Source: Phycisphaerales bacterium (lineage in GTDB: Bacteria > Planctomycetota > Phycisphaerae > Phycisphaerales > UBA1924). From it: 64,000 bases of DNA. Positions within the stretch are counted from its first letter, which is position 1. Each line of letters opens with the position of its first letter. The notes under the pieces are model-generated. The model was not told the DNA's origin. It saw only the letters and a program-made list of their open reading frames with translations, and ran no database searches. Location of the stretch: assembly GCA_027019265.1 (NCBI GenBank), contig JALUWX010000107.1, forward strand, positions 1-64,000. Direction: 5' to 3'. Shown here one piece after another: positions 9,485 to 16,397 of the stretch. The position numbers were made by a program, and so were the translations under genes.

Positions 9485-9700
9485 GGGCCTTGGTTTCAGC
9501 GTGTATCCGCGGCGCTGCGGGGTGGGTTCCGGGGTTCGTGGTTTCATAGCTTTTTGTTTGCGTAGTACAATTTCCCCAATTTTGGATTTCTTTGTCTTCT
9601 TTTTGGTTCTTATGTTCTTCCGGGGCTAGTGTTGGGTGAGGGCGTGGGGGGCCCGGCTGGCGGGCAGCTCCACGGGGACCCTCAGAAAGGGGAAGACACG

Positions 9701-11767
9701 ATGAGAATGGAACACGCTTGGATGTTCGCGCTGCTTGCGGGATCGACGGTCGCGCTGGCTTCGCCGACTGAGTACCGGTTGAACGAATCGTTCGATCTAT
9801 CGGGTATGCCTGCTGCGGGCTTCGACGGGGAGGACGCGAACAAGGGCAAGATTGTTCGGCTCGAGTACCCCGACGGGGTGGGGGGATTCGAGGTCGTGTT
9901 GCTGAGTGTGTACGGCGATGCGCAGGGGCCTGACGTGTGGGGGTACACGGGGAGCGTGCGCGCGGCGCGTGATCTGTTCGTGACCCGCTCGACGGACGGG
10001 GGCACGACGTGGTCGGTGCCGGTGAATGTTTCGAACACGGCGAACCTGTCGTCGATCAGCGCGGATCACGACGGGGATCCGCTCACCCCCGAGCTCCCGT
10101 ACTTCGGCGATTCGCAGAAGCCCAACGTGATCAACAACGGGAAGAACGTGCTGATCAGTTGGGTTGATTCGTACGCGCCGGGTGGGGCGCAGCGGACGGT
10201 GACGTACCCCGAGTTCGGGTTCACGGAAGTGCCTTATGCCGCGACGTACTGTGTGCGTTCGTCGGATGGGGGTGTGACGTGGAGCGAGCCCGAGATGCTC
10301 TCGAACGGTGAACGCGACGCGAAACAGGACGTCGTGAAAGCGTCGAGCGCGGGGTTCCTCGTGACCTGGCAGGAGGATCCGAAGGGTCTCCAGCCCGGTG
10401 ACGCGGAGGGCCCGGGTGAGGGCGGTTCCGGCGCGAACGTGAACAACGGGACCGACATCTGGTACACGGCGCTGCGTACGAGTGCGTTCTCGTCGGGTGC
10501 GCCGTTCCCCGAAGGTCGGCGTGTGACGAACAACTTCACCATGACGGACAACGACGGGTACGAGTCGGGTCGTGAGGGCGCGGCGCGTGCGAACTCGTTC
10601 TTGTTCGGGACGACGGCGATCGTTGCGTATGAGGAGACGAAGGGTCTCCAGGGCGCGGACACGGGCAAGTACATCCGGTACCACACGTTCTCGGCGTTTG
10701 ACGACAGTGCGCCGGATGTGACGGAGGGTGTCGGGTGGATCCTTTCGCAGCCCGATGAGAATGCGCGCCGGGTCCGGTTCGTGACGCAGCCCGGGCCGTT
10801 CCAGAACCAGAGCGATGTGAGGATCGTGTGGGTTTGGAAAGAGGGCGCGTACGACCGTGGTGGGCCTTCCGACATCATGTGTCGGGTCGGCTCGGTCGAT
10901 CCGGGTGATCCGGGATCGACGGGGTTCCGGCCTGAGGATCTGAATCCCCCGATCGACCCGGACGCGACGACGCGCGAGAACGCGTTCAACAACGCGCTCG
11001 GGATGAATCTGAGCTCGTCGATGGGGCTCGGGGCGCATCCGGAGGATGACTTCTTCGAGGACGCGCGCGCCCATCGTGGGATGCTCCGGGGCGACTTCAT
11101 GGTGTTCGGATGGAGCTGGACACCGGACTGGGCTGTTGCTCGGTTCACGGATCTCGAGAACTACAACTTCTTCGTCCGTCGGTCGTACGACGGCGGGCAG
11201 ACGTGGACGGATGCCCAGAACATGACGAACATCCCGTCGAGCGAGAAGGTGCATGTGCGTGAGCCCAGGATCGTGGGCGCGCCGGTCAGCCCGAACCCGG
11301 ACACCCCGGTGAACCCGGGCGCGTTCCTGGTTGCCTGGGGGACCGAAGTGAACCAGTACGAACACGCTTCGGTCGGGACGCTCGATCTGAACATCTTCCT
11401 GACCCACTCGGACGACTTCGGCGAGACCTATGCGCCGGTCGTGAAGCTCGACGACGTGGATGTGGATCTGGAGCCCAACAAGGGCGCGTTCGAGAGCCAG
11501 CTCCGGCTGAATCCGAGCGGTGATCGGGTGTACGCGGTCTGGCAGGAGGTTGATCGAGACACGGGTGTGACGAACACCCGGTTCCGGAACGGGTCGGCGT
11601 GCTTGCCTGATCTGAACGGGGACGGCGAGCTCGACTTCCTCGATGTGAGCGCGTTCACCGATGCGTTCGGGATGGGCGATATGAGCGTGGATTTCAACGG
11701 CGACGGTGTGCTGGACTACTTCGATGTGAGCACATTCGTGAACTCGCTGTACGCGGGTTGCCCGTGA
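9701..11767 (+). CDS. secreted sialidase/BNR-like protein with C-terminal dockerin-like EF-hand repeats
   Basis: Signal peptide; repeated 'RSTDGGTTWS / RSSDGGVTWSEP / RSYDGGQTWTD' BNR (Asp-box) motifs; C-terminal DLNGDGELDFLDVSAFTDAF and DFNGDGVLDYFDVSTFVNSL. Confidence 0.8.
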   Translation: MRMEHAWMFALLAGSTVALASPTEYRLNESFDLSGMPAAGFDGEDANKGKIVRLEYPDGVGGFEVVLLSVYGDAQGPDVWGYTGSVRAARDLFVTRSTDGGTTWSVPVNVSNTANLSSISADHDGDPLTPELPYFGDSQKPNVINNGKNVLISWVDSYAPGGAQRTVTYPEFGFTEVPYAATYCVRSSDGGVTWSEPEMLSNGERDAKQDVVKASSAGFLVTWQEDPKGLQPGDAEGPGEGGSGANVNNGTDIWYTALRTSAFSSGAPFPEGRRVTNNFTMTDNDGYESGREGAARANSFLFGTTAIVAYEETKGLQGADTGKYIRYHTFSAFDDSAPDVTEGVGWILSQPDENARRVRFVTQPGPFQNQSDVRIVWVWKEGAYDRGGPSDIMCRVGSVDPGDPGSTGFRPEDLNPPIDPDATTRENAFNNALGMNLSSSMGLGAHPEDDFFEDARAHRGMLRGDFMVFGWSWTPDWAVARFTDLENYNFFVRRSYDGGQTWTDAQNMTNIPSSEKVHVREPRIVGAPVSPNPDTPVNPGAFLVAWGTEVNQYEHASVGTLDLNIFLTHSDDFGETYAPVVKLDDVDVDLEPNKGAFESQLRLNPSGDRVYAVWQEVDRDTGVTNTRFRNGSACLPDLNGDGELDFLDVSAFTDAFGMGDMSVDFNGDGVLDYFDVSTFVNSLYAGCP

Positions 11768-11843: not shown

Positions 11844-11886
11844 GAGCCACGCGGCGGACCCCGGCCGCGTGGCTCTTTCATTTTTC
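11844..11886 (+). terminator. intrinsic terminator
   Basis: GAGCCACGCGGC / GCCGCGTGGCTC stem followed by TTTCATTTTT. Confidence 0.85.
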
Positions 11887-11908: not shown

Positions 11909-11948
11909 ATCAGCGCTTGCTCATCGCGCCGGCGAGGAGGAAGGCGAG
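11909..11948. repeat. 40-bp direct repeat, copy A (3' end of DAHP synthase gene)
   Basis: ATCAGCGCTTGCTCATCGCGCCGGCGAGGAGGAAGGCGAG; matches 12459-12498 with one mismatch. Confidence 0.95.
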
Positions 11949-11977
11949 ATTGATATCATCATCGCATGGACCATGTC

Positions 11978-12460
11978 TCACTGTTCAGTTGGTAATGGAT
12001 CAATCAGCTCGAACCGGATTGTGTCGAGGTATCCGGCAAGCTCGATTTCGGTCCCGGACCGAGTGATCATCGAATAGACCAAGGCGTTTCTTTCGAGATC
12101 GAGATCAAGTTCGTGATACCCGACGTCGTCGCCATTGGCGTACATGTGTCGGGGATCTTGTTCTTCTTCCGTATCCCAGTTCTCGACAACAGCTCGTCGC
12201 ACACCGCTTACTCTCAGAGCGCGGGGGTGTCCGTCATCAACTTCACTCAGGATGATTGTCACGACATCCTTGTCAATATGAATCGACTCGAATCCATCAT
12301 CGTGCAACCCGCATGAATCCAGCACGAAGCTGGGGACACCCTTCAAATGCCCACGGATTTGATCTAGGTGTGCAGCGTATTCATCAAAAACGACTGCCGG
12401 GTTGCTCGAACTCAGGTCTGGACTCTCAACAAACCACCAATGCGCAGTGAAGAATCGCAT
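11978..12460 (-). CDS. hypothetical protein, low GC, possible acquired gene
   Basis: MRFFTAHWWFVESPDLSSSNPAVVFDEYAAHLDQIRGHL...; start overlaps the DAHP synthase stop (TGATG). Confidence 0.7.
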   Translation of the reverse strand: MRFFTAHWWFVESPDLSSSNPAVVFDEYAAHLDQIRGHLKGVPSFVLDSCGLHDDGFESIHIDKDVVTIILSEVDDGHPRALRVSGVRRAVVENWDTEEEQDPRHMYANGDDVGYHELDLDLERNALVYSMITRSGTEIELAGYLDTIRFELIDPLPTEQ

Positions 12461-12498
12461 CAGCGCTTGCTCATTGCGCCGGCGAGGAGGAAGGCGAG
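12459..12498. repeat. 40-bp direct repeat, copy B (within DAHP synthase 3' end)
   Basis: ATCAGCGCTTGCTCATTGCGCCGGCGAGGAGGAAGGCGAG; 550 bp from copy A. Confidence 0.95.
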
Positions 12499-13854
12499 TT
12501 CGAGGGACTGTTGGTAGTTGAGTCTCGGGTCGCAGAGGGTGGCGTAGTTTCGGGTGAGGTCGTCTTCGGTGATCCCGGCGGCGCCTCCGACGCATTCGGT
12601 GACGTCTTCTCCGGTGAGTTCGAAGTGGACCCCGCCGAGGATGGTTCCGGCTTCGTGGTGCGCGTCCACGACCTGTTCGAGTTCGGAGAGGATGTCGTTG
12701 AAGTTGCGGGTTTTGATCCCGGAGCTGGTTTTGATGCCGTTGCCGTGCATGGGGTCGGACATCCAGAGGACGTTTCGTCCTTCGGACTTCACGCGCGCGA
12801 GGAGCCCGGGCATGTTCGCTTGGACGTTGCTGACCCCCATGCGCGTGATGAGGACGATTTTGCCCTCTTCGTTCGTGGGGTTGAGCGCATCGAGGATGCT
12901 GATGAGTTCGTCCCCGTTGATGGGGGGACCGATCTTGACCCCGATGGGGTTCTGGATGCCTTTGAAGAACTCGATGTGGGGGCCGTCGAGCTGGCGGTTG
13001 CGTTGTCCGATCCAGGGGAGGTGTGTGGTGAGGTCGTAGTAGCCCGTGCGCCGGGGGACGGTCCGGGTCTGTGCTTCTTCGTAGTGGAGGTTGAGCCCTT
13101 CGTGGGAGGTGTAGAAGTCCACGCGCGTGGACTCGTGGACTTTCTGTTCCCCGAGGTTCTCCATGAAGGAGAGCCCGTCAGCGAGGGTTCGGGACATCAT
13201 CTCGTACTGGGCGCGGCGCGCGTCGGAGAGGTCGGCGTTGTGGAAGAAGGAGAGATCCCAGTATTCGGGGTGGTGGAGGTCGGCGAACCCGCCGTCGAGG
13301 AGGGAGCGGATGAAGTTGAGGGTCATGGAGGCGTGTTTGTATCCTTCGACCATGAGGTTGGGGTCGGGTGCGCGGTGTTCGGGGGTGAAGGGGGCGCGGT
13401 TGACGAGGTCCCCGAAGTAGCTGGGGAGTTCGCAGACGGATCCGTTGTGGTCGGCGGACTCGGTGGGGGAGGAGCGGGGCTTTGCGTATTGCCCGGCGAA
13501 GCGCCCGACGCGCGTGACGGGGGTGCGGAGCCCGTGGATGAGGACGAGGGACATCTGGAGGAGGATCTTGAGTTTGTTCGCGATGGGCGCGGGCTGGCAC
13601 TCGTCGAGGGTTTCGGCGCAGTCTCCTCCCTGGAGGATGAAGCGCTCCCCGCGCTGGGCTTGCGCGATCTGGGCTTTGAGTCGTTCGATCTCCCAGGAGG
13701 TGACGAGCGGGGGGAACTCGGCGAGTCTGGTGCGCGCGGCTTGGAGCGCGGAAGGATCGGTGTACGCGAAGGGCGCGTCGAAGGGGACGTCGCGCCAGGA
13801 ACCCGGGTTCCAGTTGGTGTCCAAGGTCCGAGATGTGGTATCGGTGTCGCTCAT
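12460..13854 (-). CDS. aroG: 3-deoxy-7-phosphoheptulonate synthase, class II
   Basis: SWEIERLKAQIAQAQRGERFILQGGDCAETL, RVGRFAGQYAKPRS, LVNRAPF, MHGNGIKTSSGIKTR, GGVHFELTGEDVTEC. Confidence 0.92.
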   Translation of the reverse strand: MSDTDTTSRTLDTNWNPGSWRDVPFDAPFAYTDPSALQAARTRLAEFPPLVTSWEIERLKAQIAQAQRGERFILQGGDCAETLDECQPAPIANKLKILLQMSLVLIHGLRTPVTRVGRFAGQYAKPRSSPTESADHNGSVCELPSYFGDLVNRAPFTPEHRAPDPNLMVEGYKHASMTLNFIRSLLDGGFADLHHPEYWDLSFFHNADLSDARRAQYEMMSRTLADGLSFMENLGEQKVHESTRVDFYTSHEGLNLHYEEAQTRTVPRRTGYYDLTTHLPWIGQRNRQLDGPHIEFFKGIQNPIGVKIGPPINGDELISILDALNPTNEEGKIVLITRMGVSNVQANMPGLLARVKSEGRNVLWMSDPMHGNGIKTSSGIKTRNFNDILSELEQVVDAHHEAGTILGGVHFELTGEDVTECVGGAAGITEDDLTRNYATLCDPRLNYQQSLELAFLLAGAMSKR

Positions 13855-13934: not shown

Positions 13935-16397
13935 ATGGCGGAGACACCCCGGACTGTGGCGTTGAAGGTCGTTGATGGGGGTCGTCGCGCTCCGAAAATG
14001 GGGCAGACCCGAGCGGCGCGGTGGCGGACGGGGGTGCTGATCCTTGTCCATGTCTTCATGATCGTGCACATCGTTCAGTGGCTGATCGTGGGGATGACGA
14101 TCTCCCCTGTAGAGCCCTCGGAGTCGATGGAGACGCTCGAGGTGGGGGTGGTGAACGCGGGGGCGATCATGTTCGGGGTGGCGCTTTTGTCCACGGCGGT
14201 GTTCGGTCGGTTCTTCTGTGGGTGGTTGTGCCATATGGTGGCGATGCAGGACCTGTGCGCGGTGGTGATGGCGCGGATGGGGGTGCGCCCGAAGCCGTTC
14301 CGTTCGAGGTTGTTGGTGTTCTTCCCGCTGGTGTTGGCGCTGTACATGTTTGTGTGGCCGACGTTCAAGCGGTTGGTGCTCAGGCCGGTGCTGGAGTCGA
14401 ACGGGGTCGCTTGGCCGGTGTGGCTCAAACCCGTGAACGAGTCGATCGTGCTCCGGAGCGAGCTGATCGTGTCGGACTACTGGGCGACGTTCCCGGCGTG
14501 GTACATCGCGATCCCGTTCCTGCTGATCTGCGGGTTCGCGACGGTGTACTTTCTGGGGGCGAAAGCGTTCTGTACGTACGGGTGTCCGTACGGGGGGTTC
14601 TTTGCGCCGTTGGACAAGGTGTCGCCGACCCGGATCATCGTGAACGATTCGTGCGAGGGGTGTGCGCACTGCACGAGCGCGTGCACGTCGAACGTGCGCG
14701 TGCATGAAGAGGTTGCGAACTTCGGGATGGTGATCGATCAGGGGTGTATGAAGACGCTCGACTGTGTGTCGGCGTGCCCGAACGACGCGCTCCGGGTTGG
14801 GGTGGGTCGTCCAGCGATTTTCGCGAAGGCGCGTGACTCCGAGGGGGCGAACGCGGCGAAGGTGAAAGCGAAGCGTCGGTACGACCTATCGATGGGTGAG
14901 GAGATCGCTGCGGCGTTGGTGTTCCTGTGGTTGTTTTATGCGACGCGCGGGTTTCTTGATCAGGTCCCGATGCTGCTCGCGGGGGGATTGGCGGCCGTCG
15001 GGACGATGCTGTGTGTGAGCGCGTGGTGGCTGGTGCGGAGGAAAGACGTGCGGATCCATTCGATGAAGCTGAAAGCGAAGGGGCGGATCAAGCCCTTGGG
15101 GTATGCGCTGGTGTGTTCGGTGCTCGGGCTTGTTGCGATCGGCGCGTGGTCCACGAACGCGAAGGTGGGGCGCTGGCGCGGGGATATGGCGTTTGCTTCG
15201 ATGGAGGTTCCGGCGGATACGTTGCTGCGCCCGGACTTCATCCCCAGCGAGAAGCTCCAGGAGACGGCGCGGAAGGCCGTCGAGTTCTATGAGTCCGTGG
15301 ATTCGCTCGATCGTGGGGGGATGGGTTGGTCGCTCAACGCGGAGCAGCGGATCCGGTTGTCGTACTTCTACACGATGCTGGGGGAGCGTGAGAAGGCGGT
15401 GGACGAGCTGGGGTTCGTGATCCGTCACGCGAACCCAACGAGCGATCTGGTGATCCGTCGTGGGAAGATCGCGATGAGTCTGTCGAGCGACGCGGACACG
15501 CTCATGGAGAACAACACGATGGCGCTGGAGGCGCAGCCCCATCTGCACCTGGTCCGTGCGGAGGTCGCGAAGGGGTATGCGAGCCGGGGTGAGATCGAGC
15601 GTGCGGAATCGATGTGGGAGGCGCGTCCGGAGGAGGACGAGTTCGGTTGGTTGCTCGCGCAGGCTTCGTACGCGGGGTTCATCGGGGAGTCGAACCGCGC
15701 GGCGCGTCTGCTCGGGGAGGCGGGGGCGTTGATCGATGAGGAGGCGCACGAAGCGCCGGTCCAGCACACCCAGATCGCGTTTGCGGCGTATGGGATCGGT
15801 CAGCGCGAGCTGGTCGAGAAGCATGCGGCGTTGACGGTCGCGCACCCTGATGCGAACGTGAGCCATTGGCTGAGCGCGGCGGAGTTCGCGGTGTGGAGAC
15901 AGGAGCGTGAGTTGGGGCTCGAGCGGGTGGAGCACGCGCTGACGATGGATGGCGCGGATCGGGCGACGGCGCAGCGCCGGGCGGCGGCGCTGCTTGCGGA
16001 TTCGGGTCAGACGGATCGTGGGTTCGAGATGCTCAAGCTCGCGCTTGAGGATCTTGAGAGCCCGTTCGACAAGCAGGGGATCCTGGTGCTCATGGTCCGG
16101 GTGGGGCTGAACTATCAGCACACGGAGTCCTTCGATTTCGGGCTCGAGCGTTACGAGTCGCTCGCGCGGGCGCACCCGGAATACCCGGTGCTGAGTGTGG
16201 ACTACGCGACGATCCTGATCCAGCTCGGGAGGAACGAGGAGGGGCTGGAAGCGATGATCCGGGCGGCGGGGTTGGATGAGCGGAATGCGTTCATCGCTTG
16301 GCGGGTTGCGGAGATCTGCGCGGCGCTGGGTGACGCTGAGGCGAACCAGCGTTGGGTGGATGAGGCGCAGCGCCGGGAGTCGCTCGGGGCGGGCTGA
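13935..16397 (+). CDS. membrane polyferredoxin (NapH/CcoG-like) fused to TPR-rich C-terminus
   Basis: FFCGWLCHMVAMQDLC, FCTYGCPYGGFFAPLDK, CEGCAHCTSACTSNV, CMKTLDCVSACPNDAL then several hundred residues of TPR-like helices. Confidence 0.8.
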   Translation: MAETPRTVALKVVDGGRRAPKMGQTRAARWRTGVLILVHVFMIVHIVQWLIVGMTISPVEPSESMETLEVGVVNAGAIMFGVALLSTAVFGRFFCGWLCHMVAMQDLCAVVMARMGVRPKPFRSRLLVFFPLVLALYMFVWPTFKRLVLRPVLESNGVAWPVWLKPVNESIVLRSELIVSDYWATFPAWYIAIPFLLICGFATVYFLGAKAFCTYGCPYGGFFAPLDKVSPTRIIVNDSCEGCAHCTSACTSNVRVHEEVANFGMVIDQGCMKTLDCVSACPNDALRVGVGRPAIFAKARDSEGANAAKVKAKRRYDLSMGEEIAAALVFLWLFYATRGFLDQVPMLLAGGLAAVGTMLCVSAWWLVRRKDVRIHSMKLKAKGRIKPLGYALVCSVLGLVAIGAWSTNAKVGRWRGDMAFASMEVPADTLLRPDFIPSEKLQETARKAVEFYESVDSLDRGGMGWSLNAEQRIRLSYFYTMLGEREKAVDELGFVIRHANPTSDLVIRRGKIAMSLSSDADTLMENNTMALEAQPHLHLVRAEVAKGYASRGEIERAESMWEARPEEDEFGWLLAQASYAGFIGESNRAARLLGEAGALIDEEAHEAPVQHTQIAFAAYGIGQRELVEKHAALTVAHPDANVSHWLSAAEFAVWRQERELGLERVEHALTMDGADRATAQRRAAALLADSGQTDRGFEMLKLALEDLESPFDKQGILVLMVRVGLNYQHTESFDFGLERYESLARAHPEYPVLSVDYATILIQLGRNEEGLEAMIRAAGLDERNAFIAWRVAEICAALGDAEANQRWVDEAQRRESLGAG

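Follow-up and report, generated by a model that had tools for sequence, protein, structure and literature searches.

A low-GC single-gene insert at the 3′ end of an aroG-like gene in a Phycisphaerales bacterium, and its counterparts at other gene ends in related genomes

The 3′ end of an aroG-like gene in a Phycisphaerales bacterium carries an AT-rich insert with a single gene, which starts on the aroG stop codon and is followed by a second copy of the last aroG codons. Relatives hold the site without the insert, and the layout of a gene tail, one to three genes and a second tail copy, with no recombinase, is found at several other genes and is therefore recurrent rather than a one-off. On balance we favour the reading that a single-gene mobile cassette entered the aroG 3′ end, with a unit of gene tail plus gene recombining in and displacing the old tail, although we hold it with moderate confidence. 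The window referred to below is the whole stretch of 64,000 nucleotides that was analysed (contig JALUWX010000107.1, positions 1 to 64,000).

The insert at the aroG 3′ end

The locus comprises the following features:

9629..11767, + strand: convergent gene for a BNR/dockerin-type secreted protein of 712 aa (BNR matches weak), 78% identical beside aroG in G002 and G014
11844..11875, no strand: hairpin with a 12-bp stem, then TTTCATTTTT on the + strand (read from the sequence), probably the terminator of the convergent gene
11909..11953, − strand: distal (free) copy of the aroG tail in direct repeat D1, probably the displaced ancestral end, judging by the direction at the dus loci
11949..12458, no strand: inserted low-GC segment of 510 bp between the tail copies (GC 51.2% vs 63.8% in the window)
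11978..12460, − strand: cassette ORF (ORF161; 160 aa plus stop), its ATG overlapping the aroG stop (TGATG), from ORF reading and homologues that align from residue 1
12459..12503, − strand: gene-attached copy of the aroG tail in D1, the last 13 codons including the stop
12460..13854, − strand: aroG-like class-II DAHP synthase gene, the host gene (PF01474, E 2.4e-176), stop TGA at 12460-12462
13935..16397, + strand: divergent ferredoxin-type FixG/TPR-like gene (synteny; Fer4_5 and TPR matches)

The two 45-bp copies of D1 lie 550 bp apart from start to start, and either translates on the minus strand as LAFLLAGAMSKR*. Their inner 40 bp (11909-11948 vs 12459-12498) match at 39/40 positions, the sole difference being synonymous (GCA in the attached copy, GCG in the distal one), so that direct reading bears out the repeat described in a first-pass annotation of this DNA. 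A chance repeat is rejected, as the best 40-mer identity reached in 100 shuffles of 2.9 kb of DNA was 24/40 and the two tails match each other with a BLAST E of 1.6e-14. Nor is the repeat a common genome-wide sequence: the duplicated-tail arrangement at aroG is single-copy in its own genome, which dismisses a genome-wide repeat family. The same annotation had described a single low-GC ORF with its ATG on the aroG stop, and this too stands: the insert has the lowest GC among all 510-bp stretches of the window, GC3 is 0.55 in the cassette ORF vs 0.86 in aroG, and the ATG and the TGA have one base in common. Its view of GCA as an atypical codon is not supported, since GCA makes up 4 of the 35 Ala codons of aroG itself, though it is absent from two neighbouring genes.

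As had also been stated, the insert holds a single cargo gene and no integrase; its only ORF is not a recombinase, and no recombinase gene was found in the ORF list or with Pfam. No inverted repeats were found within 11949..12458, neither an attC-like inverted repeat in the insert nor an integron integrase in the window region was seen, and the hallmarks of IS elements or MITEs (terminal inverted repeats, a transposase, a short target duplication) are lacking at the aroG insert.

ORF161 has no sequence match in Pfam, NCBIfam, PADLOC or the PDB. Clear relatives were detected only in G063 (29%, E 6e-5) and G435 (28%) when some 600 genomes of the order and phylum were searched, with two further marginal matches and no close relative, and a search of genome contigs for loci related to the aroG cassette gave no match. 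The homologues of G063 and G435 align with ORF161 from residue 1 and share the motifs MxFFTxxWW, xAHLxxIR and GIE, so that the ATG on the aroG stop is probably the true start. So sporadic a distribution is as would be expected of a horizontally moving gene. A fold model from the single sequence is of low confidence (pLDDT 56.5); its best PDB match, a polymorphic toxin/immunity complex (8owu, E 0.015), may serve as a lead, and only as a lead, towards kinship with immunity proteins.

Empty sites, other cargo and the same layout elsewhere

Orthologues of aroG are present in 45/61 relatives. Two genomes of the same genus, G002 and G014, keep both locus neighbours (the 712-aa gene and the FixG/TPR-like gene) and lack the cassette, with about 115-157 bp and no gene between the end of aroG and the 712-aa gene. 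As 141 bp separate the distal aroG tail from the 712-aa gene in the window, the window minus the ORF and one tail has the organisation of G002 and G014; their aroG genes are about 73% identical to that of the window, and exact junctions and intergenic bases are too diverged to align. The empty sites that the first-pass annotation had proposed to look for thus exist, at aroG and at sister loci, and its claim of a foreign entry at the gene end is supported by the AT-rich ORF, the lack of a close relative and the absence from G002 and G014.

The cargo at aroG differs between genomes: G008 and G015 carry, in place of ORF161, an unrelated 368-aa ORF which likewise overlaps the aroG stop, as TAATG. 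The aroG tails of these two (...LLAGAISK...) resemble that of the window (...LLAGAMSKR), and most cassette-free relatives differ. In G029, from another genus of the family, two copies of about 150 bp of the aroG tail enclose a lower-GC segment of 1.9 kb in which three small ORFs lie. A search for aroG tails in 400 genomes of the order, which is able to miss short duplications like that of the window, returned only the window and G029 as clearly repeated cases. For other genes, a blind repeat scan for tail duplications covered 2.2 Mb of related genomes, and the layout occurs at:

phoH (G043): 48-51 bp of tail duplicated, one antisense ORF between
DoxX-like gene (G043): 61 bp of tail duplicated, one secreted protein gene between
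aroA (G014): 44 bp of tail duplicated, two tandem PEP-CTERM cassette copies between
amylase-like gene (G014): about 230 bp duplicated including the terminator, one PEP-CTERM gene between
dus (G010): 62 bp of tail duplicated, a glyoxalase-family gene starting immediately after the dus stop, followed by a second cassette, with SUKH-1

Duplicated gene ends, whose presence elsewhere was another point to be checked, are therefore found at aroG in G029, at aroA and the amylase-like gene in G014, at phoH and the DoxX-like gene in G043, and at dus in G010, G008, G015 and G014. No recombinase or integrase was found in any protein-gene insert, in ORF lists or with Pfam. The duplicated tail varies in length from 40 bp to >200 bp between cases, with no common core. 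At aroA in G014 (L199, 16347-18045), the two tandem cassette copies between the tails measure 820 bp each, which suggests the outcome expected of unequal crossing-over between direct repeats; comparison of the two aroA tails does not distinguish the ancestral copy.

In a control that compared tails, starts and internal segments of 4277 open frames, the tail matches included six cassette cases, while the start and internal matches that were inspected, not all of them curated, looked like paralogues, dockerin-type motifs and hairpin repeats. Duplications also occur away from gene tails. A 5′-type case in G043 (C25, 30893-31016 and 33802-33925; L125) is a 124-bp duplication at 93% identity, and an intergenic case lies in G010 (C17, 155642/156867). 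The duplicated segment of the former is, by appearance, the start of a sigma-factor-like gene, and it flanks a sulfatase and another gene.

Several repeats were discarded (L080, L033, L044, L035, L129, L088, L055 and G014 C38 at 88-91 kb) as paralogues, dockerin-type motifs, Lys-rich repeats, hairpin repeats or a 1-kb tandem duplication. L064 was set aside because a clean empty site was not obtained, the downstream region varying among relatives. Short hairpin-forming intergenic repeats of REP/MITE-like character are present in several genomes (L035 8925/12717, L200 8626-9697, L129 11101/12089).

Cassettes between dus and DUF1572

The richest site is the junction between dus and a DUF1572/DinB-like gene. 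Counting the genomes of the genus in which both genes lie on one contig, the junction is empty in 3/17 (G006, G017 and G020), where dus overlaps the start of the DUF1572 gene (ATGA), and filled in 14/17, with a gap of 528-3750 bp. The inserts are usually AT-rich and hold one or few small ORFs, starting at the dus stop. Cassette families A to E recur across species in differing orders and combinations:

G004: dus-A
G008: dus-A-tail-sulfotransferase
G015: dus-A-tail-D-E
G014: dus-D-tail-C-E
G002 and G018: dus-C
G000: dus-E

Cassettes are thus shuffled between species at this site, and different cargo at the same site, which had been sought at aroG, is well represented here. Family C was found in 3/21 genomes, at dus only and absent elsewhere in the genus. 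The internal dus tails directly precede cassettes, and C and D take first place after dus in other species; this arrangement points to tail plus cassette as the moving unit.

The dus tails also bear on which copy is new. In G014, the attached tail is native as far as ...SLDDW, and its final 42 bp are unlike those of its clade (EEILKKYYGMQPI*); the distal tail is 93% identical to that of G018 over 173 bp, reaching the native end. In G010, the attached tail ceases to match that of the sister genome G011 about 31 bp before the end, and the distal copy matches further. The attached end would therefore have arrived with the cassette and the distal end would be ancestral, a replacement terminus that sequence comparison establishes in G014 and indicates in G010. 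The idea that the insert supplied a new terminus and that the distal copy is the old one, put forward for aroG by the first-pass annotation, thus finds its backing at dus; in the window both tails end identically and fit either direction of insertion.

Cargo of other kinds is present at this junction. A SUKH-1 (SMI1/KNR4) gene lies in the gap of G010 (L206, 476-1145), and the gaps of G005 (L221) and G011 (L207/L260) hold genes for a DUF3800 protein and for a HATPase paired with DUF4325; these families are often seen with immunity or defence functions. In G001 (L250/L217), a uracil-DNA-glycosylase-like cassette and the DUF1572/DinB gene form a single ORF of 418 aa by in-frame fusion.

Possible routes of entry and known systems

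According to the reading that we favour, the incoming DNA would consist of an aroG tail and the orphan gene, and would recombine with the resident aroG tail. The host gene would stay intact because the incoming DNA provides its last codons and stop, and the resident tail would end up as a free copy 550 bp further downstream, adjoining the old intergenic region as before. ORF161 would then close the aroG transcript as its final gene, and translation would restart at the overlapping TGATG. The driver may be tail homology acting through RecA-type recombination, and the donor may have been circular or transformed DNA. The 40-bp repeats should allow a 550-bp circle to be excised, or the segment to be amplified, as the tandem aroA pair of G014 suggests. 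We infer both the molecular step, an exchange through tail homology, and that the case in the window arose by it; in our sample of one genome per species we saw neither a donor molecule nor a circle nor any strain polymorphism. Between the sister genomes G006, with an empty dus site, and G003, with a filled one, the junctions are exact, and the cassette was inserted without a tail copy, which counts against the favoured reading.

Insertion with a long target duplication, gene ends being over-represented only since the gene then stays intact, is the strongest of the alternatives, if a somewhat unlikely one. Nobusato et al. in 2000 reportedly described such insertion. The pattern documented for restriction-modification genes of Helicobacter pylori (PMC1643837, PMC3031569) is alike in moving one or few genes, in its target-derived direct repeats, which run to tens or hundreds of bp, and in lacking a transposase. 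Free repeat lengths without a core, the unrelated inserts, and the 5′-type and intergenic cases all speak for this alternative, and it fits the window tails as well as the favoured reading does, since the two share the same terminus and differ at 1/40 positions. The dus termini of G014 and G010 differ: their attached tails carry a new terminus that a plain target duplication leaves unexplained, although the 146 bp that the two dus tails of G014 have in common, 93% identical, may be compatible with duplication followed by drift. The recurrent use of one gene end with reshuffled cassettes also speaks against this alternative. Ku, on which end joining usually relies, is present in only one of eight genomes searched, G043; the other seven, all of family f1, to which the window belongs, lack it, which weakens Ku end joining as a general route. 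Our cases further differ from those of H. pylori in that the cargo is orphan, secreted or metabolic rather than restriction-modification, in their concentration at gene 3′ ends with stop-start overlap, in the dus arrays with several tails, and in that the attached copy can carry a new terminus.

Site-specific integration, in which a tyrosine integrase, either supplied in trans or lost in the meantime, would use the tail as its attB and the cassette would be a mini-island or remnant, appears very unlikely. Integrases occur in 8/8 genomes searched, and the clade has islands with tRNA 3′-end duplications, among them an integrase-free one of 1.85 kb at a tRNA-Ala gene in G005. Yet a recombinase is present in no protein-gene case, the targets (aroG, aroA, phoH, dus, amylase, DoxX) have no evident common sequence, and both duplication length and crossover position vary from case to case. 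SGI1 is an integrase-driven island at the trmE 3′ end. Other islands of this kind use the dusA 5′ end (PMC4482086, PMC8409611). Integrase-driven gene-end islands resemble our cassettes in that the target stays functional through a supplied end, in the duplicated gene end and in a dus gene as hotspot; they differ in that here no integrase is present, the inserts are of 0.5-2 kb with one or few genes, and the dus 3′ end rather than the dusA 5′ end is used. An ordinary tandem duplication, gene conversion or an assembly artefact, which the draft state of the assemblies might bring to mind, is hardly credible for an insert unrelated to aroG, on a contig of 114 kb with conserved neighbours on either side, in a layout that recurs in at least five genomes.

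Integron gene cassettes are likewise single-ORF, low-GC, mostly unknown and arranged in arrays, but here no attC-like inverted repeat was seen and no integron integrase is present, and what is repeated is the coding end of the gene upstream. Saunders and Snyder are said to have described minimal mobile elements in Neisseria in 2002. The dus/DUF1572 junction has the defining properties of such elements, varied small cargo between the same two conserved genes with mobility genes absent; here the tail of the upstream gene may in addition be duplicated, and cassettes can stack in arrays. What is notable with respect to known integrase-free insertions is the gene tail as address, the stop-start coupling and the arrays at dus. 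Tentatively, and as a decidedly doubtful proposition, the coding 3′ tails of housekeeping genes could serve as recombination addresses of a decentralised system, in which general recombination at many gene ends would capture modules of tail plus gene, stack them and pass them between species; genes would be born into operons with translational coupling and without a dedicated recombinase. Should tail homology prove to be the address, a single rule would account for the way in which operons acquire genes at their ends and yet keep the upstream function.

Little is understood of how single orphan genes come and go in genomes when neither transposases nor integrases are at work, and the scars are legible here, as duplicated gene tails and a new gene start on the host stop codon. 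The dus cassettes can be traced through about 20 species as a natural experiment, and the cargo (SUKH-1, DUF3800, glyoxalase-family and secreted PEP-CTERM proteins, orphans) suggests a route for lineage-specific adaptive genes.

Duplicated tRNA 3′ ends were observed in the same clade in several forms. The tRNA-Ala(GGC) element of G005 (L102, 14693-16638) carries a PEP-CTERM gene and an ArsR-like regulator. In G010, the duplicated 3′ ends of tRNA-Ala(GGC) enclose an array that spans about 23 kb and contains two integrases (L110 16683 to L111 19668), and further integrase-bearing elements have duplicated tRNA 3′ ends of 29-113 bp (L176 9095-9207, L178 8678-8706, L180 9624-9677).
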